Shown here in pieces: positions 89 to 10,631 of a stretch of 10,803 nt of DNA. Every line of letters starts with the position of its first letter. Within the stretch, counting starts at the first letter, position 1. The notes under the pieces are model-generated. The model did no database searches. It worked only from the letters and a program-made list of their open reading frames with translations, and was not told the origin of the DNA. A program made the translations under genes and the position numbers. Source of the stretch: Candidatus Latescibacterota bacterium (GTDB lineage: Bacteria; JAAXHH01; JACQVL01); assembly GCA_016209865.1 (NCBI GenBank), contig JACQVL010000273.1, forward strand, positions 1 through 10,803. Reading direction: 5' to 3'.

Positions 89-252
89 GATTTTGGATTT
101 TATATTGTAGATTTTGGATTACGGATATGATGTTGCGACAGGCGAATGGTTTAATACCATTTACCTTTGGAGGAACTATCATTGAAGGCAGATAGGTGAT
201 CGTTCATAGATGGATTTATCAATCCAAAATCCAAAATCCAAAACCCAAAATC
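89..252. repeat. Inverted pair of 7-base iterated tracts (TTTGGAT / ATCCAAA)
   Basis: The left arm, 89-120, is built from GATTTTGGATT-like words. The right arm, 221-252, is its complement: ATCCAAA three times in tandem (222-242), then ACCCAAA and ATC. When one arm is reverse-complemented, 27 of 32 positions match without gaps. The arms enclose 100 bases (121-220). The left arm begins 4 bases after the ATPase stop, and the right arm lies inside the reading frame of the first permease. Heptamer tandem repeats of this kind (STRR type) are known from filamentous cyanobacteria. What they do here is unknown. A mobile or structural element is possible, but no target-site duplication was seen. Confidence 0.75.
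145..161. other. Small palindrome between ATPase and permease genes
   Basis: AATGGT (145-150) and ACCATT (156-161) are perfect inverted repeats around TTAAT. They sit between the two arms of the 89-252 inverted repeat and shortly before a GGAGGA motif (169-174). The arrangement could be an operator half-site pair or a weak hairpin. A six-base match in a short A/T-rich gap can also occur by chance. Confidence 0.25.
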
Positions 253-1292
253 AGTCTACGGTGAGGAGGTGGACGGGACGGCGGTGGCGTTCGAGTGTTC
301 TTTCTTCCGTGATCGCGGTCGTGAGCGCGTTCGGGATCGGGGCGCTCATCATCCGGGCGGCCGGGTACGATGCGGGAGTCGCGCTCGGCGCGCTGCTCGA
401 CGGGGCGGGGGGCAGTTGGTACAGCCTCTCTGAGACGTTGCTGAGAAGCTGTCCCCTGCTGTTGACCGGCCTGGCGGTCGCGTTCGCGTTCCGGTGCGGG
501 GCCTGGAATATCGGCGCGGAAGGCCAGTTCCTGGTGGGAGCGCTGGCCGCGGCGTGGGCCGGTCCGCATTGCGACGGATGGCCGGGATACGTGGCGACTC
601 CGTTCCTGCTCCTCCTGGGGGCATGCTGCGGCAGCATCTGGGGCGGCATCGCTGGCCTGCTCAGAGTTCGTCGGCGCGTCCAGGAAGTCATCAGCACGAT
701 CATGCTCAACTTCGTGGCCATCCAGTTGGTCAGCTACGCAGTCCACGGCCCGCTGATGGAGTCGACAGGCCAGTTCCCGCAGACCAGCCCGATCGCTGAG
801 GCCGCCCGGTTGACCCGGTGGTTTCCGCCGACGCGGCTGCACGCCGGGGTGTTTCTCGCCGCGCTCTGCGCCGGTCTGCTCCACGTCCTGCTCTTCCGGA
901 CGGTGTTCGGCTACGCCGTGCGGGCGGTCGGACTGAACGCGACCGCGGCTCGCTCGGCGGGTATCGATGTCCCGATGACGGTGCTGGGCGCGATGTGCGT
1001 GAGCGGCGGGCTTGCGGGACTGGCCGGGGCGGTGGAACTCTCCGGGATCACGTATCGGCTCTACGAAGACTTTGCCGGAGGCTACGGCTACACCGCCATC
1101 GCCGTCGCGCTGCTCGGCCGTCTCCATCCCGCCGGCGTCGTGTTCTCTGCCCTGCTGTTCGGGGCGCTCGAGACCGGAGCCAGCGGACTGCAGCGGACCG
1201 CCGGGATCTCGTCGGTGCTGGTGTACGTGATTCAGGCCCTCATCCTGCTGTTCGTCGTGGGCGCGTCGGTCTACGAGAGACGAACACGATAG
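210..1292 (+). CDS. BMP-type ABC importer permease subunit 1 (nucleoside-type, YufP/NupP-like)
   Basis: This is an integral inner-membrane permease of the branched-chain/sugar/nucleoside permease family (BPD_transp_2), probably for a nucleoside-like solute. The 360-residue product has many hydrophobic segments, among them residues about 29-50, 82-94, 105-117, 129-150, 212-229, 247-266, 300-320 and 332-352. The family signature NIGAEGQFLVGA begins at residue 100, and a coupling-loop-like stretch GLNATAARSAGI lies at 231-242. The ATG at 210 is preceded by AGGTGA (194-199). With this start, residues 4-15 (SIQNPKSKTQNQ) are encoded by an intergenic-type repeat arm, so a start at GTG 261 (residue 18) is a real alternative, although no good ribosome site precedes it. 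It pairs with the permease at 2199-3122. The gene between them is not a transporter part. Confidence 0.88.
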   Translation: MDLSIQNPKSKTQNQSTVRRWTGRRWRSSVLSSVIAVVSAFGIGALIIRAAGYDAGVALGALLDGAGGSWYSLSETLLRSCPLLLTGLAVAFAFRCGAWNIGAEGQFLVGALAAAWAGPHCDGWPGYVATPFLLLLGACCGSIWGGIAGLLRVRRRVQEVISTIMLNFVAIQLVSYAVHGPLMESTGQFPQTSPIAEAARLTRWFPPTRLHAGVFLAALCAGLLHVLLFRTVFGYAVRAVGLNATAARSAGIDVPMTVLGAMCVSGGLAGLAGAVELSGITYRLYEDFAGGYGYTAIAVALLGRLHPAGVVFSALLFGALETGASGLQRTAGISSVLVYVIQALILLFVVGASVYERRTR

Positions 1293-1325
1293 ATGCCGGA
1301 GGGATGGTGAAGGGAGAGATTACTG

Positions 1326-2168
1326 ATGTCATCTGCTGAACCGTGGACGCCCGTTGGCCCAGATATCGAGTCCGTCTTCGTCCATGACCCCGACCCGCTG
1401 CATGCCCTCTCCGAGGCGCGCGTCCCGGCCATCCTCTTGCGCCAGGCATACGCCCCGACTCAGTGTCACGGGCTGATCCGGCGGTTCATCGAGCGGGGAC
1501 TGATGAGGGCCCCGGACGATCCGATGGCCGCTGCTCAGGATCCGCGCACACGGATCGACATCGGCACCAGCCTGGGCAATCGTGGAGCGGACAAGGAAGC
1601 GTTCTTGGAGCATGCAATCGGCACACACGAGCTGTTCAACACCCTGTTTGACGGGTTCGAGAATCCGGTGAAGATCATCTACGATGCCCTGTCCACATTG
1701 GCGGTCGGCAAACAGGTGAAGGTCGCCCGCGAACCCGACGGCCGTCTCTACGGTCCGGCGATCTTTCGCGTTCACTACGGCGGCCATACGTACCGACCCC
1801 ATATTGACCACGTTGTGTTGCGTGAAAAACGCTCTCAGTACGCTGTGTCTCGTTTTCAGCACCAGTTTGCAGGCGTCATCTGTTTTCAGAACGATTCCCC
1901 TGACGGAGCAAGCACCCAGGCCATCCTCCATCGGTGCCTCTGGACGCCGGAGATTCAGCCTTACATCGAAGCGGGAACGTTTCATGAGTACGCCACTGAA
2001 CATCACATCGACCACTACCGGGTCGATCTGGCTCAGGGTGACCTGTACTTCTTCAACACCCGCTGCATCCACGAAGTGCCGGCGGTGCAAGGCAGGAATC
2101 CCAGAATCGTCCTGGCCACGTTCATCGGCTACTCCCCGGACGACGATGACGTGTATGTGTGGTCGTGA
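1326..2168 (+). CDS. Fe(II)/2-oxoglutarate-dependent dioxygenase, substrate unknown
   Basis: The product is a 280-residue protein of the 2OG-Fe(II) oxygenase fold, which couples oxidation of a substrate to decarboxylation of 2-oxoglutarate. The iron triad is readable: His159 and Asp161 in YRPHIDH, and the distal His249 in RCIHEVP. Arg260, 11 residues after His249, is placed to hold the 2-oxoglutarate carboxylate. No signal peptide or membrane segment is seen, so it is probably cytosolic. AGGGAG (1311-1316) lies 9 bases before the ATG. The gene begins 33 bases after permease 1 and ends 30 bases before permease 2, interrupting a transporter pair that is normally contiguous. Parts of it, for example around 1800-1870, look less GC-rich than the neighbours, which would fit a later insertion. 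The family covers many substrates, so prolyl or other hydroxylation cannot be assigned. Confidence 0.85.
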   Translation: MSSAEPWTPVGPDIESVFVHDPDPLHALSEARVPAILLRQAYAPTQCHGLIRRFIERGLMRAPDDPMAAAQDPRTRIDIGTSLGNRGADKEAFLEHAIGTHELFNTLFDGFENPVKIIYDALSTLAVGKQVKVAREPDGRLYGPAIFRVHYGGHTYRPHIDHVVLREKRSQYAVSRFQHQFAGVICFQNDSPDGASTQAILHRCLWTPEIQPYIEAGTFHEYATEHHIDHYRVDLAQGDLYFFNTRCIHEVPAVQGRNPRIVLATFIGYSPDDDDVYVWS

Positions 2169-2190
2169 ACAGACGAACAGGGGAACAGGA
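2167..2190. repeat. 8-base iterated tract GAACAGNN between dioxygenase and permease 2
   Basis: Three tandem 8-base units are visible: GAACAGAC (2167-2174), GAACAGGG (2175-2182) and GAACAGGA (2183-2190). The tract begins in the last two bases of the dioxygenase stop codon, and its last unit supplies the AGGAG ribosome binding site (2187-2191) of the permease start at 2199. It therefore fills nearly the whole gap. Confidence 0.7.
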
Positions 2191-2198
2191 GACCCCGG

Positions 2199-3122
2199 AT
2201 GGACTTCTGGCTCCTCTTCATCAGCCTGATCCGGGCTGGACTGAAGATGGCCGTTCCGCTGTTGATGACTGCCCTTGGTGAACTCTTCGCGGAGCGTGCC
2301 GGGGTGATCAACATCGGCCTTGAAGGAATGATGCTCGCCGGGGCGTTCGGCGGGATGGCCGGGTCGTATTTCACCGGGAGCCCCTGGATCGGTCTGCTGG
2401 TCGGCGTCGGAGCGGGACTCCTCTTCGCCGCGCTCTTCTCCGTGATGTCCGTCGGACTGGGAGCGGATCAGGTCGTGACCGGGGCGGCCATCAACCTGAT
2501 GGCCCTGGGGTTGACCGGCGTCCTCTACCGGCGGATTTTTGGGGTGACCGGAGCCGCGCTGTCGGTCCAGACGTTCGCTCCGGTCGGCCTTCCGGGATTC
2601 CAGGATATTCCGGTACTGGGCGAGATCGTGTCCGGGCATACCGCCCTGCTGTACATCGGGTTTGCGCTCGTGCCGGTCGCCACATGGGTTCTCTTCTCGA
2701 CCTCGCTCGGCCTGACGATCCGGTCCGTCGGAGAATACCCCAGGGCGGCAGACACCGCCGGTCTTGCCGTGAGCCGGGTCCGCCATGCCTGCGTCCTGGC
2801 GAGCGGGGTGCTGGCTGGGGCTGCGGGGAGTTATCTCTCCCTGGCCCACTCGAACACGTTTGTGGAGGGGATGTCTGCCGGCCGCGGGTTCATCGCGCTC
2901 GCCATCGTCATCTTCGGGCGCTGGCGTCCGGCCGGCGCGATGTGGGCCGCGCTGCTGTTCGGCCTGGCGAACGCGGTGCAGTTCCAGTTTCAGGCGATCG
3001 GGTCGGCCATCCCGTATCAATTTTTCTTGATGCTGCCGTATGTCCTGACGCTGCTCGTGCTCGTCCTCTTCGCCGGCCGCGCCCGACCGCCGGCCGCGCT
3101 GGCGAGGGCGTATGAACGTTAG
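2199..3122 (+). CDS. BMP-type ABC importer permease subunit 2 (nucleoside-type, YufQ/NupQ-like)
   Basis: This is the second membrane permease of the importer whose ATPase tail lies at 1-84 and first permease at 210-1292. The product is 307 residues, a normal length for the NupQ/YufQ branch. Diagnostic segments are GELFAERAGVINIGLEGMML at residues 27-46, the VGLGADQVVTGAAINL loop at 85-100, the coupling-loop-like SVGEYPRAADTAGLAV at 166-181 and EGMSAGRGFIALAIVIFG at 223-240. Long hydrophobic stretches fill the spaces between them. AGGAG at 2187-2191 stands 7 bases before the ATG. The last codons and the TAG (3120-3122) run into the next intergenic repeat. The usual substrate of this class is a nucleoside delivered by a BmpA-like lipoprotein, but that gene is outside the window, so the substrate is inferred. 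Confidence 0.9.
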   Translation: MDFWLLFISLIRAGLKMAVPLLMTALGELFAERAGVINIGLEGMMLAGAFGGMAGSYFTGSPWIGLLVGVGAGLLFAALFSVMSVGLGADQVVTGAAINLMALGLTGVLYRRIFGVTGAALSVQTFAPVGLPGFQDIPVLGEIVSGHTALLYIGFALVPVATWVLFSTSLGLTIRSVGEYPRAADTAGLAVSRVRHACVLASGVLAGAAGSYLSLAHSNTFVEGMSAGRGFIALAIVIFGRWRPAGAMWAALLFGLANAVQFQFQAIGSAIPYQFFLMLPYVLTLLVLVLFAGRARPPAALARAYER

Positions 3123-3145
3123 AACGTGCGAACGTGCCAACGTAT
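3114..3145. repeat. 8-base iterated tract GAACGTGC between permease 2 and PTPS gene
   Basis: Four 8-base units follow one another: GAACGTTA (3114-3121), GAACGTGC twice (3122-3137) and CAACGTAT (3138-3145). The first unit contains the last codons and most of the stop codon of permease 2, and the last one contains part of the ATG of the pterin synthase gene. The same AACGT word family recurs at 6012-6097. Confidence 0.75.
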
Positions 3146-3974
3146 GCTCTACTTGACCCGTAAAATCGAATTCGCCGCCGCCCACGTCTGCCGGCGGCCG
3201 GAGTGGCCGGACGAGCAGAACCGCCGGGTCTACGGCGCGTGTGCGATCGGCTCAGGACATGGCCATGACTACGTCTGTGACGTCACCGTCAAAGGCCCGA
3301 TCGACCCGCGCACCGGGATGGTGGTGAATCTGGTCGAGGTGAACCGGACGATGAAGGCGGTCGTCGGGGTGCTGAATGCAACCCATCTGAACGACGATCA
3401 TCCCGCGTTTCAGGAGCGTGTGCCGACGACGGAATGGCTGACGCTGGTGCTGTGGGACCGGCTCCAGCCCCATCTGGAGCGATGCTTGCTCCATCGAATC
3501 CGGCTGCAGGAGAGCCGGACGCGGGTGGTCGAATACCGGGGGGAAGGTTCGATGGTCTATGTCACACGGCGGATCGAGTTCAACGCGGCGCACCGGCTGC
3601 ACAGCGCCGTGTTGAGCGATGAAGAGAACGCGGAAGTGTTCGGCAAGTGCAACAGTCCGAACGGTCACGGGCACAACTATGAGCTGGAAGTGACCGTCCG
3701 GGGTCCGGTCGATGAGCGCACCGGGACGGTCATCGACCTCGAGCACCTGGACAAGGTGCTCGAAGAAGAAGTCATGGCTCGGTACGATCATAAGAACCTC
3801 AACGTGGATGTCGAGGAATTCCGCACGCTCAACCCGACCTCCGAGATGTTCGCACGGGTGATCTGGGACCGGCTCGCTGTCCGCCTGGCCGACCCGCCGC
3901 GCGCGCTCTACAGAGTGCGTCTGGTTGAGACATCGAAGAACGCGTTCGAATACTACGGAGAGCAGGAGCCATAG
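3144..3974 (+). CDS. Tandem-domain 6-pyruvoyl-tetrahydropterin synthase (PTPS/QueD superfamily)
   Basis: This product converts dihydroneopterin triphosphate, made by the FolE encoded next door, to a tetrahydropterin. It holds two PTPS domains, about residues 1-133 and 137-276. Zinc ligands appear in both: His14, His39 and His41, and His150, His175 and His177. Each has the Cys-x5-His-Gly-His motif (Cys33, Cys169). In the COG0720 family this motif marks the PTPS-II, biopterin-type class, whereas QueD has Cys-x3-His-Gly-His. Domain 2 keeps the catalytic Asp215-His216 in YDHKNLN and the pterin-binding Glu234 in PTSE. Domain 1 reads LNATHLN at the first site, so the Asp-His pair is missing, but it keeps Glu97. 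ATG 3144 fits the usual MxYxTRxIEF start. GTG 3126 would only add residues coded by repeat. No clear ribosome site precedes it. A queuosine role remains possible because neither queE/queC nor a sepiapterin reductase is in view. Confidence 0.88.
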   Translation: MLYLTRKIEFAAAHVCRRPEWPDEQNRRVYGACAIGSGHGHDYVCDVTVKGPIDPRTGMVVNLVEVNRTMKAVVGVLNATHLNDDHPAFQERVPTTEWLTLVLWDRLQPHLERCLLHRIRLQESRTRVVEYRGEGSMVYVTRRIEFNAAHRLHSAVLSDEENAEVFGKCNSPNGHGHNYELEVTVRGPVDERTGTVIDLEHLDKVLEEEVMARYDHKNLNVDVEEFRTLNPTSEMFARVIWDRLAVRLADPPRALYRVRLVETSKNAFEYYGEQEP

Positions 3975-4544
3975 ATGGAAGACCGCATCACCGCCCTCAT
4001 CAAAACCCTGCTGGTCGAACTGGGCGAAGACCCGGAACGGGAGGGACTGATCAAGACTCCGCGCCGTGCCGCGGATGCGCTGCGTTTCCTGACCAAAGGG
4101 TACCGCGACGACATCCACACCGTCCTCAACGGCGCGGTATTCGAGGGAGAAGATTATGACGAGATGGTCGTCGTGAAGGACATCGAGTTCTATTCCCTGT
4201 GCGAGCATCATCTGCTCCCGTTCTACGGGCAGTGCCACATCGCCTACATCGCCAACAAGAAGATCATCGGCCTCAGTAAAGTCGCCCGTCTGGTGGACAT
4301 GTACGCCCGGCGGCTGCAGGTTCAGGAACGGCTGACGACGCAGATCGCCCACACGTTGCAGGAATGGCTCAACCCGCAAGGGGTGGGGGTGGTGATGGAG
4401 GCCGCGCACCTCTGCATGATGATGCGCGGGGTCGAGAAGCAGCACTCCAAAGCCCTGACGAGTACGATGCTGGGCACATTCCGCAAGGATCGGTCGACAC
4501 GCACGGAGTTCATGGAGCTGATCCGCCGGCCGGGGAGCTATTGA
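3975..4544 (+). CDS. folE: GTP cyclohydrolase I (FolE type)
   Basis: GTP cyclohydrolase I opens GTP to 7,8-dihydroneopterin triphosphate, the first step toward folate, biopterin and 7-deazaguanine compounds. The product is 189 residues, normal for the bacterial enzyme. The zinc ligands are visible as Cys76 and His79 in [10 protein letters not shown] and Cys147 in AHLCMMMRG, followed by the conserved [28 protein letters not shown] at 99-118 is a family hallmark. The ATG follows the TAG of the PTPS gene with no base between them, and AGGAG at 3964-3968 lies inside that upstream gene, so translational coupling is likely. Placing the substrate-making enzyme directly behind its user supports a shared pterin pathway, which itself is not fixed by this window. 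Confidence 0.96.
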
Positions 4545-4563
4545 GAGTGGAAGGAGTCTCACG

Positions 4564-6006
4564 ATGCTCAAGGATGACTTAACCCGCGCTCTCGCGGACA
4601 TCGTCGGCCCGGAGGGCGTGATCGATGCGCCGGACGAGTTGATCGTGTATGAGTGTGACGGGCTGACGCTCGACAAGACGGCTCCGCACGCGGTCGTCTT
4701 CCCGACCTCGACGGAGCAGGTGTCGGCGGTCGTCCGGCTGCTCCACCGGGACGGCATCCCGTTCGTCGCGCGTGGGGCGGGCACCGGACTGAGTGCGGGG
4801 TGCCTCCCTCTGCAGGGTGGGGTGATGATCGCCCTGACGAAGATGAATCACATCCTGCAGATCGACCTGAAGAATCGGCGGGCGCTCGTCGAGGCGGGGG
4901 TGGTGAACCTGTGGCTGACGAAAGCGGTCTCCGAGAAAGGTTATTACTACGTACCCGACCCGTCCAGCCAGCAATCGTGCACGATCGGGGGGAACATCGC
5001 GGAGAATTCCGGCGGGCCGCACACCCTGAAGTACGGGGTCACGACCAATCATACGCTGGGGGTTGAGTTCGTCCTGCCCGACGGCGAGGTTGTCTGGCTG
5101 GGCGGCCAGACAGACGACGCGACGGGGTACGACCTGCGCGGGGTCGTCATCGGGTCGGAGGGCACGTTCGGGATCGTGACGAGGGCGTGGGTCCGGCTGT
5201 GCAAACTGCCGCAGATGTACAGGACGTTCCTCGCCGTCTTCGAGACGATCCAGGACGCGACGAACACGGTGTCCGGCCTGATCGGCCGGGGGGTCGTCCC
5301 GGCGGCCTTAGAGATGATGGATAAGGTGGTCGTCGGGGCGGTCGAGGCGGCGTTCCATTTCGGCTTTCCGCTCGACGCGGGGGCGGTGCTCATCATCGAG
5401 CTGGACGGCCTGGCGGCGGGCATGGAGACACTCGCGCAGCGGGTCGTGGAAGTCTGCCAGGAGAACCGCGTCCGTGAAGTTCGGGTGGCGAAGGATGACA
5501 CAGAACGCACCCTCCTCTGGACGAGCCGGAAGCGGGCGTTCGGGGCGCTCGGCCGGTTGAGCCCGAGCTACTACACCCAGGATGGAGTCGTCCCCCGGAC
5601 GAAACTCCCCGACATCATGCGAGTGATCGAAGCGGCGGGGAAGAAATACCGCCTGCTCATCGGCAACGTCTTCCACGCCGGGGATGGGAACATCCATCCC
5701 TGCATCGCGTTCGACGAGCGCGACCCGGACCAGACGCGGCGGGCGGTCGAGGCGAGCGGGGACATCCTCAAAGCGTGCGTCGAGATGGGCGGGTCGATCA
5801 CGGGTGAGCATGGCATCGGGTACGAGAAGATGAACTTTATGCCGCTGATCTTCTCGGACGACGACATGACGGCGATGGAGAGCCTGAAAGCGGTCTTCAA
5901 CCCGTCGAACCTGTGCAACCCCGGGAAGATTTTCCCGACGAATCGGTCATGCATCGGGTGCGGCACCCTGGAGCTGAACCGGACGAACCGCATGGCGGCG
6001 TGTTAA
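4564..6006 (+). CDS. glcD: FAD-linked 2-hydroxyacid oxidase, GlcD type (glycolate/D-lactate dehydrogenase catalytic subunit)
   Basis: A flavoprotein that oxidises a short 2-hydroxyacid such as glycolate or D-lactate to the 2-oxoacid. It has 480 residues, the length usual for GlcD. The N-terminal PCMH-type FAD domain shows RGAGTGLSAG at 70-79 and PDPSSQQSCTIGGNIAENSG at 131-150. The C-terminal FAD-oxidase domain shows HAGDGNIHP at 381-389, GEHGIG at 414-419 and NPGKIFP at 452-458. AAGGAG (4551-4556) lies 7 bases before the ATG. After the usual end the chain continues with SCIGCG at 462-467 and a final Cys480, a small cysteine-bearing tail. A GlcE-type gene follows, separated by a long inverted repeat, but the usual GlcF iron-sulfur subunit is not seen. 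Substrate cannot be fixed from sequence alone; D-lactate is favoured by the LarA-like gene at 7494. Confidence 0.88.
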   Translation: MLKDDLTRALADIVGPEGVIDAPDELIVYECDGLTLDKTAPHAVVFPTSTEQVSAVVRLLHRDGIPFVARGAGTGLSAGCLPLQGGVMIALTKMNHILQIDLKNRRALVEAGVVNLWLTKAVSEKGYYYVPDPSSQQSCTIGGNIAENSGGPHTLKYGVTTNHTLGVEFVLPDGEVVWLGGQTDDATGYDLRGVVIGSEGTFGIVTRAWVRLCKLPQMYRTFLAVFETIQDATNTVSGLIGRGVVPAALEMMDKVVVGAVEAAFHFGFPLDAGAVLIIELDGLAAGMETLAQRVVEVCQENRVREVRVAKDDTERTLLWTSRKRAFGALGRLSPSYYTQDGVVPRTKLPDIMRVIEAAGKKYRLLIGNVFHAGDGNIHPCIAFDERDPDQTRRAVEASGDILKACVEMGGSITGEHGIGYEKMNFMPLIFSDDDMTAMESLKAVFNPSNLCNPGKIFPTNRSCIGCGTLELNRTNRMAAC

Positions 6007-6011
6007 CACAG

Positions 6012-6097
6012 CGTTCGCACGTTGGCACGTTAGAACGTTGGCACGTTAGTGCTTTGAATTGAACGTTCAAACGTTCGAACGTGCTAACGTGTCAACG
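6012..6097. repeat. Large inverted repeat of 8-base words (AACGT family) between glcD and glcE-like genes
   Basis: The left arm 6012-6048 is made of GTTNGCAC/GTTAGAAC words with 8-base period. The right arm 6061-6097 is made of their complements (GAACGTTC, AAACGTTC, GAACGTGC, TAACGTGT and CAACG). Thirty of 37 positions are complementary, around a 12-base loop at 6049-6060. In RNA this would be a long imperfect hairpin filling nearly the whole gap. GAGG at 6097-6100, the ribosome site of the next gene, sits at its base. There is a five-T run (6101-6105) just after it, which makes a weak terminator or attenuator reading possible, but the run lies right at the next start codon. Confidence 0.75.
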
Positions 6098-6105
6098 AGG
6101 TTTTT

Positions 6106-7479
6106 ATGTCCAACGCATCGCTGGATCGAGGCATCCAGGCGATCATCCCGGCCTATCAGCCAGCGTCCGATGAGACGTTGGCTCAGTACGCGGTCGATGG
6201 GATAATCCCGCAGGCGGTCGTTTCGCCGGAGAACGTTGAGCAGGTTTCTGAGATCATCCGCCTGGCCGGCCGGATGGGCCTGTCGGTCATCCCGCGCGGG
6301 AGCGGGACGAAGATGGGACTCGGACTGCCGCCGTCGCGGGCCGATATCGTCCTCTCTCTCGACCGGCTGAACAAAGTGCTCGAATACGAACCGGCGGACC
6401 TGACGGCCACGGTGCAGGCGGGGATTCGGCTCACCGACCTCCAGACGCAGTTAGGCGAGCACGGCCAGTTCTTCCCGATCGACCCGCCGTACGGGGACGC
6501 GTGTACCCTCGGCGGCGTCATCGCCACGAACGCGAGCGGCCTGCTGCGGTGGACGCACGGGACGGCCCGCGACCTGGTCATCGGGACGAAAGTCGTGCAG
6601 GCGGACGGGACGGTCGTCAAGGCCGGCGGCAAGGTGGTCAAGAACGTCGCCGGGTATGACATGAACAAGATGTACATCGGCTCCCTGGGGACGTTGGGGA
6701 TCATCGTCGAGCTGACCCTCAAGCTCCAGCCACGGCCTGAGGCGGGACGCGCGGTGCTGGCGCGGTTTCCGTTCATCACCACGGCGGTCGATACCGCGTT
6801 CAAGGGCCTCGATTCACCCATCGCGCCCAGTTTTGTGGAGATGGCCAACCCGGTGCCCGTCGCCATCCTCGCCCGGCGGGCGGGGGGTGGGCTGGGCGAT
6901 GCGGGCTTCCCGCTCATCATCGGCGCGATCGGGCCGTCCGAGACGGTCAACTGGCAGATCGCCGAGGCGGAGAAGCTGTGCCATCAGGCGGGCGCGGTGC
7001 AGGTGGTGACGATGTCCCCCCAGCTCTACCGGACGGCGATCGACCTGATCCGGGAGTTTCCGACCGGCCAGATCGTCCCGCAAGGGATGAGGGCGCCGGG
7101 GGTCGTCTGCCGGGCGAGTGTCCTTCCGTCTGACGTCGGGCGGCTGTACCAGATCGCGGAGGACCGGTCGCAGAAGCTCGGCGTCGGGTGCGCGATGCTC
7201 TCCCACTTCGGGAACGGAGCGGTCGTGTTCGTGTTCTTTCAGGATCAGCCGTTCGAGGGGGAACGATTAGAGATACTCGTTTCGATCATCCGGCAACTCT
7301 CCGCGGCGGCGACGGAATTCGGCGGCCATCTCACCGTCGAATCCGCGCCGTTAGCCGTCAAACAGCGGCTGGATGTCTGGGGGGCGCGCCCGAGCGACTG
7401 GGGGTTGATGCGGGCGCTCAAAGACCGGTTCGATCCCTCGCGGGTGCTCAGTCCGGGCCGGTTTGTGGGAGGGTTATAA
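6106..7479 (+). CDS. glcE: FAD-binding glycolate/D-lactate oxidase subunit, GlcE-like
   Basis: This is the second FAD subunit, homologous to GlcE. In the glycolate oxidase complex GlcE works with GlcD and GlcF at the membrane, passing electrons onward. The FAD domain shows PRGSGTKMGLG at 63-73, CTLGGVIATNASG at 133-145 and the GlcE hallmark VKNVAGYDMNKMYIGS at 178-193. The last residues, RFDPSRVLSPGRF, match the usual C-terminus of the FAD-oxidase family. At 457 residues it is longer than the roughly 350 of E. coli GlcE, so it carries a fuller C-terminal domain. The start ATG has GAGG (6097-6100) 5 bases before it. Two in-frame TAA codons (7477-7482) end it, and the second overlaps the ribosome site of the next gene. 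It could work as a stand-alone oxidase, since no GlcF follows. Confidence 0.85.
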   Translation: MSNASLDRGIQAIIPAYQPASDETLAQYAVDGIIPQAVVSPENVEQVSEIIRLAGRMGLSVIPRGSGTKMGLGLPPSRADIVLSLDRLNKVLEYEPADLTATVQAGIRLTDLQTQLGEHGQFFPIDPPYGDACTLGGVIATNASGLLRWTHGTARDLVIGTKVVQADGTVVKAGGKVVKNVAGYDMNKMYIGSLGTLGIIVELTLKLQPRPEAGRAVLARFPFITTAVDTAFKGLDSPIAPSFVEMANPVPVAILARRAGGGLGDAGFPLIIGAIGPSETVNWQIAEAEKLCHQAGAVQVVTMSPQLYRTAIDLIREFPTGQIVPQGMRAPGVVCRASVLPSDVGRLYQIAEDRSQKLGVGCAMLSHFGNGAVVFVFFQDQPFEGERLEILVSIIRQLSAAATEFGGHLTVESAPLAVKQRLDVWGARPSDWGLMRALKDRFDPSRVLSPGRFVGGL

Positions 7480-7493
7480 TAAGGAGGCAAACA

Positions 7494-8747
7494 ATGACCT
7501 ATCCGAATATCATCCGCGTGCGCCAGCGGTTCGACGCGCCGGTCGTGGCGGACATCGCCGGGACGACGCGGGCGGAGGTCGAACGGGCGATCGTGCAGGC
7601 CGGCATCCGGCGGGGCGCGACGGTCGCGGTCGCGGCCGGCAGTCGCGGCATCGCCAACATCGCCACGATCGTGCACAACACCGTGATCGCCCTGCAGCGC
7701 GCCGGGGCGGTCCCGTTCATCATCCCGGCGATGGGCAGCCATGGTGGGGCGACGGCGGAGGGCCAGGTCCGGATTCTGGATCACTACGGCATCTCGGAGG
7801 CGACGATGGGCTGCCCGGTCCGGTCGGACATGGAGCCGGTGCTGGTGGGGGAGACGGACGACAGCCTGCCGGTGTACGTCGACCGCAACGCGCTGAGCGC
7901 GGATCATCTGGTCATCGTCAACCGGGTGAAGCCGCACACCGACTTCGACGGGGACATCGGCAGCGGGCTGATGAAGATGATGGCCATCGGCCTGGGGAAA
8001 CAGAAGGGGGCGAGTTTTTACCACGGCGCGGTCTTCCAGTACGGGTTCGAGCGGATGATCACCTCAGTCGCCCGGATGGTGATGACCCGGTGCCCGGTCG
8101 CCTTCGGCGTGGCGATCGTGGAGACCGCGTACGACCAGACGGCCCACGTGGTGGCCGTCCCCGCCAGCGAGCTGGAACAGCGAGAGCGTGAGCTGTTCGC
8201 TGAGGCGAAGCGGTTGATGCCGAAGCTTCCGTTCGACGACCTCGACGTGCTCATCGTGGACGAGATGGGGAAGAACATCAGCGGGACGGGGATGGACACG
8301 AACATCATCGGACGGCGGATGCAGAACTTCGAGCCGGAGCCGGCATCGCCTCGGGTCCTGCGGATCATCGTACGGGACCTGACGCCGGAGAGCGAAGGGA
8401 ACGCGGTCGGGATCGGCCTGGCCGATTTTACGACGAAGCGCCTGGTCGATCAGATCAATCACCGGTTCACGTACATCAACTCGATCACCGGGATGGGGCC
8501 GCAGAAAGCCCGGATTCCGGTGTTCTTCGAGACGGATCGGGAGGTAATCGAGGCCGCACTCTCGACGATCGGGATGACGAAGCCGGCGGACAGCCGTCTC
8601 GTCCGGATCAAGAATACCCTGCACGTCGGCGAGGTCGACGTGTCGGAGTCGCTCCTGGCCGAGGTCGCCGGGCGTGACGACCTGGAGATCGTCGGAGCAC
8701 CCCGTCCTCTGGCGTTTAACGAGGCGGGGATGTTGATGCCGATGTAG
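7494..8747 (+). CDS. LarA-like nickel-pincer 2-hydroxyacid racemase/epimerase homologue (DUF2088 family)
   Basis: This 417-residue protein belongs to the lactate racemase (LarA) superfamily, whose studied members use a nickel-pincer nucleotide to interconvert 2-hydroxyacid isomers. Residues matching the LarA active site can be placed: His83 in MGSHGG, His148 in VKPHTD, Lys161 in GLMKMM (the cofactor-linked lysine in LarA) and His177 in FYHG. The LarA Asp-x-Thr-Arg motif reads AGSRG here, keeping only Arg51, so the substrate is likely not identical to that of LarA. AAGGAGG (7481-7487) stands 6 bases before ATG 7494, which decides the start against a longer open frame. It follows the glcD/glcE-like pair with a 14-base gap, so a shared 2-hydroxyacid pathway is a reasonable inference: isomer conversion, then oxidation. 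The cofactor-making genes larB, larC and larE are not in view. Confidence 0.8.
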   Translation: MTYPNIIRVRQRFDAPVVADIAGTTRAEVERAIVQAGIRRGATVAVAAGSRGIANIATIVHNTVIALQRAGAVPFIIPAMGSHGGATAEGQVRILDHYGISEATMGCPVRSDMEPVLVGETDDSLPVYVDRNALSADHLVIVNRVKPHTDFDGDIGSGLMKMMAIGLGKQKGASFYHGAVFQYGFERMITSVARMVMTRCPVAFGVAIVETAYDQTAHVVAVPASELEQRERELFAEAKRLMPKLPFDDLDVLIVDEMGKNISGTGMDTNIIGRRMQNFEPEPASPRVLRIIVRDLTPESEGNAVGIGLADFTTKRLVDQINHRFTYINSITGMGPQKARIPVFFETDREVIEAALSTIGMTKPADSRLVRIKNTLHVGEVDVSESLLAEVAGRDDLEIVGAPRPLAFNEAGMLMPM

Positions 8748-8768
8748 GGGCGCACGGGCCTGTGCCCC
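8747..8768. other. Strong GC hairpin directly after the LarA-like gene
   Basis: GGGGCGCA (8747-8754) pairs with TGTGCCCC (8761-8768), 8 base pairs with one G-U, around the loop CGGGCC. It starts at the last base of the stop codon. No T-run follows, since the next bases are GACGAAAAAT, so it is not a classical intrinsic terminator. It may stabilise the 3' end of the upstream message or be part of a dispersed palindromic repeat. Confidence 0.5.
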
Positions 8769-8782
8769 GACGAAAAATATTA

Positions 8783-8811
8783 TTGACAAAACTATGCCGG
8801 GTTCATATACT
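8783..8811 (+). promoter_or_regulatory. Sigma-70 promoter for the shell-protein genes
   Basis: A perfect -35 box TTGACA (8783-8788) and a near-consensus -10 box TATACT (8806-8811) are separated by exactly 17 bases. The region is locally A/T-rich in an otherwise GC-rich window. Transcription should start near 8818, giving a leader of about 100 bases before the ATG at 8922. This is the only consensus-quality promoter found in the window, and it separates the microcompartment/sigma genes from the upstream genes. Confidence 0.8.
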
Positions 8812-8829
8812 CTCTGCCCATCGGTTCTG

Positions 8830-8915
8830 CCGTCCCTCGATAGAGGGGCGGGAAACCTTGTCCCTCCGGGCGATCTGATGGTGTGACAGCATCAATTGAC
8901 ACGGTCAAGGAGGAG
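8830..8915 (+). promoter_or_regulatory. Structured 5' leader ahead of the shell genes
   Basis: A 9-base-pair hairpin (8830-8838 with 8843-8851, GATA loop, one G-U pair) lies about 12 bases after the expected transcript start. The word GTCCCTC of its left side (8832-8838) is repeated at 8860-8866. The GAGGGG between them (8843-8848) could therefore pair with either copy, giving two exclusive folds. Nearer the gene, TTGAC (8896-8900) and GTCAA (8904-8908) form an inverted repeat whose right half runs into the AAGGAGGAG ribosome site (8907-8915). The leader matches no riboswitch class that I recognise. It may be a protein-binding or attenuation leader, or simple 5' structure. Confidence 0.45.
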
Positions 8916-8921
8916 TCTGCG

Positions 8922-9227
8922 ATGGCGCTGGATGCGTTGGGGATGATCGAAACGAAGGGACTGGTCGCCGCGATCGAGGCGGCCGATGCGATGGTCAAAG
9001 CGGCCAAGGTCACCCTGGTCGGGAAAGAGAAGATCGGGGGCGGGTACGTCACCGTCATGGTCCGCGGGGATGTGGGCGCGGTGAAAGCGGCGACGGACGC
9101 GGGCGCAGCGGCGGCGGAGAAGATCGGAGAAGTGGTGTCCGTTCATGTCATCCCGCGGCCGCATGCGGATGTCGAGATAATCCTCCCCGGCGGGGCGGGA
9201 CAGGGCGGCGCCCCGGCCGCAGATTAG
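8922..9227 (+). CDS. Bacterial microcompartment hexameric shell protein (PduA/PduJ-like BMC-H)
   Basis: A 101-residue single-domain BMC shell protein that should form flat hexamers tiling a microcompartment facet. The sequence closely follows PduA over its whole length: [10 protein letters not shown] near the start, [10 protein letters not shown] with the edge lysine Lys26, [15 protein letters not shown] at 47-61 and HVIPRPH with Arg79. The central pore loop reads KIGGGY (residues 37-42) where PduA has KIGSGL, so a glycine replaces the pore serine and an aromatic residue follows. A short Gly/Ala-rich tail ends it. The ribosome site AAGGAGGAG (8907-8915) lies 6 bases before the ATG, which rejects an upstream GTG at 8883. 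A second shell gene follows after 10 bases. No cargo enzyme lies next to it, so the compartment's chemistry is unknown. Confidence 0.95.
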
Positions 9228-9237
9228 AGGGACGGCG

Positions 9238-9714
9238 GTGGAACAGGCGCTGGGGATGATCGAGACGCGGGGGTACGTCGGCGCGCTCACCGCGGCGGAT
9301 GCGGCCCTCAAGGCGGCGAACGTGACGCTGCTCGGCTCGGAACGGGTGGACGCCGGGTTAATGACGATCACCCTCTGCGGCGAGGTGGCGGCGGTGCAAT
9401 CCGCCGTGGCGGCGGGCGCGGCGGCGGCCAGGCAGGTGGGGGAACTCGTCGCCCAGCACGTCATCCCCCGGCCTCATGAGGAGGTCGCTGCGGTCATTCC
9501 GGCCAGCACGACGACCCTGTCGGCCCCTCAGGCCAACCCTCACACGGAGCCGCTCACCCTGCAGGCGCTCGACCGGATGACGGTCTCAGACCTCCGTCGC
9601 CTGGCCAGACAGACGGGCGCGATTGCGCTCCGCGGCCGGGAGATCTCGAAGGCGACACGGGACGTCCTCGTCCAGGCGCTGGCACGAGCACTTGCCCTCG
9701 CAGAACGTGTATAA
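9238..9714 (+). CDS. BMC shell protein with C-terminal Rho-N/SAP-like domain
   Basis: A 158-residue protein with a BMC-H domain at residues 1-88 ([10 protein letters not shown], Lys25 in ALKAAN, HVIPRPH with Arg78), a polar linker at about 89-108, and a C-terminal module at about 109-156. The module reads [20 protein letters not shown] and ends in a Lys/Arg plus VLVQAL helix, the pattern of Rho N-terminal or SAP-like helix-extended-helix domains that often bind nucleic acid. The pore position reads VDAGLM in place of the usual Gly-Ser-Gly, so pore selectivity should differ from the protein encoded just upstream. The start is GTG with GAGGGA (9227-9232) before it. EutK is a known case of a BMC domain fused to a nucleic-acid-binding-like helix-turn-helix, but this module looks different. 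Function of the extension is inferred. Confidence 0.85.
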
Positions 9715-9731
9715 AGGAGTTGAGACCAGGC

Positions 9732-10589
9732 GTGGCCAGTTTTTCGAAAAAATCGTTCTCACGAGAAGACCAATCCCTGGACCTGTACCTGCAGGAGATC
9801 GGCGACGTGCCGTTGCTCTCTGCCGAAGAGGAGGTCGCGCTCGCCCGGAGTATCCGGAGGGGCGATCAACGCGCCTTAGAGAAGCTCACCAAGGCCAACC
9901 TCCGCTTCGTCGTCAGCGTCGCCAAGCAGTACCAGAATCAGGGACTCTACCTGGCCGACCTCATCAACGAGGGTAACCTGGGCCTCATTAAAGCGGCGAA
10001 ACGCTTCGACGAGACGAAGGGGTTTAAATTCATCTCCTACGCGGTGTGGTGGATTCGCCAGGCGATCCTCCAGGCCTTAGCCGAGCAGTCCCGCATCGTC
10101 CGGTTGCCCCTCAATCGGGTCGGGACGCTCCATAAGATCGGCCGGGTATCGAGCGACCTGGAACAAGAATTCGGCCGGGAGCCGAGTCCGGACGAGATCG
10201 CCCAGGAACTCGACATGAGTCCGTATGAGATCGCCGACACGCTTCGCATCTCAAGCCGGCATCTGTCCCTCGACGCGCCGTTCAGCCAGGGCGAGGATAA
10301 CCGTCTGCTCGACATCCTGGAAGACGACATGCAGACGTCCCCCGATGAGATCTTGATGGACGACTCCCTCAAGCATGAGATCGAACGGGCGCTCGATTCC
10401 CTGTCCGAACGCGAGGCGGAAGTCATCAGCCTGTATTTCGGGATCAACGCCGACCGGTCGTACACCTTAGAAGAGATCGGGGAGCAGTTCGGACTGACCC
10501 GTGAACGCGTCCGGCAGATCAAAGAAAAAGCCATCCGCCGTCTCCGGCACGCCTCCAGAAGCCATCGTCTCCGCGCCTACCTGAATTAA
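9732..10589 (+). CDS. rpoD: RpoD-family sigma-70 factor, short form
   Basis: A 285-residue sigma factor that directs RNA polymerase to -10/-35 promoters. Region 1.2 begins near residue 14 ([12 protein letters not shown]). Region 2 holds [18 protein letters not shown] (76-93) and [13 protein letters not shown] (98-110) for -10 recognition and melting. Region 3 lies at about 120-195. Region 4.2 has [20 protein letters not shown] (234-253) for the -35 box. It lacks region 1.1 and the long non-conserved insert of proteobacterial RpoD, and resembles the short primary sigma of the Bacteroidetes/Chlorobi group. AAAGGAG (9713-9719) points to the GTG at 9732; a TTG at 9720 abuts that site and is too close. 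The gene begins 17 bases after the shell gene, with no separate promoter seen. Whether it is the primary or a group 2 sigma cannot be told from one locus. Confidence 0.9.
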
Positions 10590-10596
10590 ACAGAAG

Positions 10597-10631
10597 CAGT
10601 GACGAGTGACCAGTGACAAGTGACGAGTAGG
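10597..10631. repeat. 7-base iterated tract NAGTGAC between sigma gene and the last gene
   Basis: Five units with 7-base period: CAGTGAC, GAGTGAC, CAGTGAC, AAGTGAC and a decayed GAGTAGG. The tract starts 7 bases after the sigma stop codon and passes directly into the AGGAGG ribosome site (10629-10634) of the next gene. It is a different word from the tracts at the other junctions, but has the same style and position. Confidence 0.75.

Follow-up and report, generated by a model that had tools for sequence, protein, structure and literature searches.

The gene junctions of this locus, a 10,803-nucleotide stretch of a Candidatus Latescibacterota genome analysed as a whole (the window), carry tandem iterations of 7- or 8-base words, and the question is what these tracts are. 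Heptamers repeated in tandem between bacterial genes are a decades-old observation, and separate, unproven functions have been ascribed to them (regulator sites, quadruplexes and translational control). The iterated tracts are likely to be the arms of small insertable elements, the complete form of which is arm, core and arm, with or without a gene for an intervening-sequence protein (23S_rRNA_IVP or S23p, PF05635; IVP). This reading is supported by the following data.

Iterated tracts and their word families

Tandem Repeats Finder (TRF) placed tracts in the window at 89-120, 221-252, 2167-2189, 3114-3143, 6012-6047, 6062-6095 and 10598-10628, all within or overlapping gene junctions. Two inverted pairs (89-120/221-252 and 6012-6047/6058-6097), which the preliminary description had listed as tracts without their inverted pairing, were recognized together with two solo arms (3114-3145 and 10598-10628). 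The first pair has a G-first (5') arm on the plus strand at 89-120 with 4.6 units of the word TDNGATT/ATTTTGG (TRF score 36), a core or loop without a gene at 121-220, and a C-rich (3') arm on the minus strand at 221-252 with 4.6 units of the reverse-complement word AATCCAA (TRF score 57). The second, also gene-less, comprises a G-first arm of 4.5 CGTTNRMA units on the plus strand (6012-6047), a core at 6048-6057 and a C-type arm on the minus strand with five units of the complementary word (6058-6097). Both solo arms were identified by tandem-repeat and word searches. The arm at 3114-3145 is C-type and of the CGTTNRMA family on the minus strand (AACGTKNN on the plus strand); it overlaps the stop of a permease gene and abuts the start of the PTPS gene. 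The arm at 10598-10628 is G-type on the plus strand, with 4.4 units of AGTGACN, and begins 8 bp past the stop of a sigma-factor gene. Of the five junctions initially noted for iterated words, four carry members of genome-wide families; the short GAACAG tract at 2167-2190 was judged not to be a member and was set aside, its one genome match being the window itself and its TRF score a weak 32.

The arms at 210-260 and 3114-3145 run into open reading frames (ORFs) and can supply start or stop codons, so that automatic gene starts nearby are unreliable. The ORF called from the ATG at 210 reads through the 221-252 arm, and its true start is probably downstream. Among the genes of the window, one for a WelO5-like 2OG-Fe(II) oxygenase (1326-2168) separates the two permeases of an ABC transporter, and two for BMC shell proteins (8922-9714) follow a LarA-like gene and immediately precede a sigma-70 gene.

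A genome-wide process acting on short words had been suggested, and the word counts bear out the genome-wide enrichment. Compared with reversed-pattern controls, the AACGT word gave 305 matches versus 3, ATCCAAA (the family of the 89-252 pair) 327 versus 0, and AGTGACN 677 versus 283; the last control is too high, since reversing the word yields almost a rotation of it. With a score of at least 36 required, 59 arrays of period 7 or 8 were counted, compared to 0.05 expected in an equal amount of simulated intergenic DNA of the same composition. The expected intergenic enrichment was likewise found: in a 456-kb sample of the 3.75 Mb, with genes called by a simple codon-model script and many stretches chosen for holding arrays, 197 of 236 such arrays were intergenic, where intergenic DNA makes up 17%. 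Since so many sampled stretches were array-selected, the density given here (0.40 per kb, or about 1,500 genome-wide by extrapolation) comes from ten contigs chosen without regard to arrays. The genome, which is 83% complete, has more than ten array words. The AACGT word was absent from relatives of the same order, each lineage having its own words. Arms of different families adjoin at three loci (L010 2544-2607, L015 12992-13085 and L028 10933-11057), as chimeric or nested elements. A second dispersed palindrome, ATTCCCGCGAAAGCGGGAAT, is found in numerous gaps and at times within the core of an array element (flanks of L145 2124-2927 and L141 2200-2988, L023 at about 1970 and L027 at about 7140).

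Paired arms and the gene between them

Many arrays are paired as in the window, a word array being followed 3-160 bp on by an array of its reverse complement, while about half or more are unpaired. The first arm is nearly always the G-richer. Among 41 pairs of the window's own genome, 33 were G-first, none C-first and 8 undetermined; all 8 pairs from order relatives, built of other words, were G-first, as were 26 pairs versus 2 C-first on unrelated IMG/VR contigs. In the CGTTNRMA unit, five positions are fixed, the N is free, and R and M are restricted. Between facing units, the variable positions agree no more often than expected by chance, from which it is deduced that the hairpin is conserved at the word level only. 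The possibility that the arms are recent inverted copies of each other was rejected, as compensatory pairing between facing units was at chance level. RNA folding predicted stable structures for the paired elements (z = -5.7 for 6008-6102 and z = -3.8 for 85-256) and not for solo arms, the predicted stem thus being confined to paired copies.

A four-helix-bundle gene adjoining arrays in two cyanobacterial plasmids was the first clue to a cargo and led to the search for PF05635. To our knowledge, this four-helix bundle has no recognized function or catalytic site, and IVP is not a known transposase. All three IVP genes of the window's own genome lie inside G-first iterated arms (words AGGCAGT, ATGGGAGA and AAGGACG), and the same placement inside arms was found for 20 of 20 loci when 12 plasmid copies (Cyanobacteriota, Gemmatimonadota and Bacteroidota) and five from order relatives were included. 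The scan of named genomes covered the best-scoring 80 of at least 586 candidate PF05635 loci, from about a dozen phyla and one archaeal metagenome-assembled genome (MAG); contamination of MAGs could affect single taxa. Within this best-scoring set, inverted arms (score of at least 13) were present at 66 of 78 testable loci, the other 12 falling below the threshold, compared to 1.9% of 468 random windows and 5 of 279 neighbouring ORFs. Arms both iterated and G-first were found at 59 of these 78 loci versus 1 of the 279 neighbouring ORFs (Fisher p = 2e-49), with G-first at 64 versus 1 where arms were present, and the arm units again peaked at four. A third, partly overlapping set of IVP genes gave arms at 25 of 30.

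The arm word also follows the kinship of the protein (Mantel r 0.245, 5 of 2000 permutations), and IVPs more than 70% identical mostly have six of the seven word letters in common. G-first arms also enclosed 3 of 310 ordinary genes in the window's own genome; a second cargo family was rejected, as these encode a glycosyltransferase, PdxS and a protein without a Pfam match.

Block presence or absence and rival explanations

Presence and absence of whole elements were observed at two sites. At a Mesorhizobium stop-start junction with flanks 87-97% identical (L308-L337), the site is empty in 21 of 30 species and measures 10, 11 or 23 bp in them. It is occupied by an IVP element with GTGAATG arms in two species, by one with GTAGTGA arms in four, and by unrelated short insertions lacking arrays in three. 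The IVPs of the two elements are 54% identical and their arm words differ; from this identity, the junction was deduced to have been hit independently twice. Around the stop, the host sequence reads CAGTGA, which agrees with the first unit of each arm word. In Nostoc, plasmid pn1 of UHCC 0926 carries a gene-less ATTTTNG element, with the word of the 89-252 pair, that is missing as a block from sister plasmids of C057 and C052. No clear target-site duplications were seen at the Mesorhizobium and Nostoc sites, and a search with the L205 flank in Nostoc matched a multi-copy element.

The preliminary description had spacers being built word by word. The arrays do not have this look, given the narrow unit number (3 units in 51 arrays of the 456-kb sample, 4 in 94 and 5 in 49, rarely more), the G-first inverted pairs and the block presence or absence. 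A role in supplying ribosome sites was likewise set aside, the near-gene position being ascribed instead to insertion into short stop-start junctions.

Within the window's own genome, the end of the IVP element at L175 and the gene-less copies at L027 have 42 bp in common at 93-95% identity, including subterminal DNA, as expected if the latter were internal deletions of an L175-type element. Solo arms are probably partial deletions. Array abundance varies with the gene: six IVP-negative order relatives gave one array in about 280 kb and IVP-positive genomes 0 to 40 per 100 kb (40 in the window's own and 23 in the genome G013), with few gene-less arrays in some genomes that have several IVP genes. 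IVP therefore seems necessary for array abundance and not sufficient. In the 83%-complete genome, no IVP-carrying copy of the commonest families (AGTGACN, CGTTNRMA and ATTTTNG) was found, its three IVP genes carrying other words.

An unlikely alternative is that the arrays are binding sites of global regulators, as tandem operators in inverted pairs, with IVP genes merely sharing the junctions. The class 1-3 elements of Geobacter metallireducens, four tandem octamers or five heptamers in opposite-strand pairs of variable spacing, closely resemble the present ones and differ in having been read as IHF/HU regulator sites (Aklujkar 2009, PMC2700814). The fixed word positions, the one free position per unit and the lack of covariation between facing units would also fit units contacted by a protein. 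Such regulators are hard to reconcile with a single genome using over ten words, with block insertion and deletion, and with so specific a cargo as IVP. Nor was any junction type enriched: the enrichment in co-directional gaps that had been anticipated was not observed (120 of 151 arrays compared to 199 of 246 gaps).

Replication slippage, yielding simple-sequence tracts tolerated in gaps (the classical view of the short tandemly repeated repetitive sequences, STRRs), would account for tandem, intergenic words resembling those of cyanobacteria. It is rendered very improbable by the sharp peak at four units, by the inverted G-first pairing and block presence or absence, and by the GTGAATG arms, which hold four units across two Mesorhizobium species while positions vary.

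Equally little probability was given to G-quadruplexes acting on transcription or translation, as proposed for the GGGNATC and GGGGA(C/T)T repeats of Xanthomonas and Nostoc (Rehm 2015, PMC4692102). Those repeats are intergenic heptamers with four units preferred and, in Xanthomonas, form 70-75 convergent pairs per genome. The position rule is the same, the G-rich strand reading away from the nearest gene edge in 121 of 151 present arrays and toward it in 30. However, the Rehm repeats have one word per genome and no link to IVP, whereas many words occur here and most, including AGTGACN, CGTTNRMA and ATTTTNG, lack G-tracts yet obey the same rules. Movement by the Y1 transposase RAYT (as for REPINs) or by a reverse transcriptase, which the short dispersed inverted repeats in gaps and the relationship of IVP to the diversity-generating retroelement (DGR) accessory protein Avd (bAvd E = 4e-5; PMC10053308) might suggest, is scarcely credible since Y1_Tnp is absent from the 83%-complete genome and G013, and RVT_1 from both of these and from the genome G011.

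Proposed element and its relation to known systems

On the preferred reading, the complete element would open with a G-richer array, in which a degenerate 7- or 8-mer is iterated in 3-5 units, and close with an array of the complementary word; between them, the core would be almost nothing, as in the window, or a single gene for the PF05635 protein. Such elements would insert as blocks into short intergenic junctions, and the gene-less copies would be miniature derivatives. We hypothesized, more tentatively, a widespread mobile family without a recognized transposase, in which IVP may act in trans as a pentamer that recognizes the iterated 7/8-mer arms and drives the spread of IVP-carrying and gene-less copies alike. 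IVP is described as a homopentamer of four-helix bundles (2GSC; Lin et al. 2006, as cited in PMC3936711), and the structure 2GSC is that of Xcc0516, from the Xanthomonas of the GGGNATC repeats. The transcribed arms might fold into stems as in ribosomal RNA (rRNA) intervening sequences and perhaps be cut by RNase III as in that of Coxiella (PMC4990558), which would make insertions into operons tolerable.

The rRNA intervening sequences with an S23p/IVP ORF (Coxiella and Leptospira; PMC4990558) are also selfish elements of about 0.4-0.5 kb with inverted-repeat ends that form a long stem, and a role of the ORF in mobility has been suggested for them in the same work. The PF05635 gene is likewise the sole cargo in the IVP-carrying relatives of the window elements, while the window copies have no gene. 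The known intervening sequences lie in rRNA helices, whereas the present elements lie between protein genes, no rRNA having been found in the 20 IVP loci checked; iterated 7/8-mer arms and gene-less miniature copies are features of the present elements. A miniature inverted-repeat transposable element (MITE) is also short and non-coding, with terminal inverted repeats and block presence or absence, as in the gene-less Nostoc copy; the window copies resemble it by structure only. MITEs derive from an autonomous transposase element, whereas terminal and subterminal DNA is here shared with an element carrying IVP.

Resemblances to other repeats are similarly partial. Cyanobacterial STRRs are intergenic tandem heptamers at many genomic sites, and the likeness to them first proposed is borne out by BLAST, the ATCCAAA tract matching plasmids of Nostoc, Tolypothrix and Planktothrix, nearly always at unannotated places. 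Of the Class I/II motifs in the Nostoc trnL P6b region, Class I, TDNGATT, is the word of the 89-252 pair and likewise forms a stem from complementary iterated arms; the trnL copies differ in lying inside a group I intron, and no link to IVP was made (PMC4476775). The TAACTGA heptamers of marine Beggiatoaceae are intergenic too and stand at gene starts; they differ in being mostly direct repeats and in that a translational regulator was proposed for them (PMC4679880). If the proposal is correct, a single family explains the STRRs, the Xanthomonas GGGNATC pairs, the paired Geobacter octamers, the trnL P6b motifs, the rRNA intervening sequences and the IVP genes in cas operons, and one insertable element makes the questions of both the repeats and IVP testable. 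The link between iterated repeats and the IVP gene appears to be new, as no paper joining them was found in the open-access literature, subscription literature lying outside the search.

IVP genes have been noted in cas loci (PMC3936711). Among the loci collected here, such genes stand inside cas operons three times, as cas6-IVP-cas4 twice and cas10-IVP-cmr3 once (L191 1495-1863, L194 1507-1866 and L195 1492-1848). The reported CRISPR association of PF05635 may therefore reflect insertion, and where an IVP gene stands in an operon, cas or other, it is perhaps an insertion rather than a functional part. Each of the three cas-operon genes sits between inverted iterated arms.
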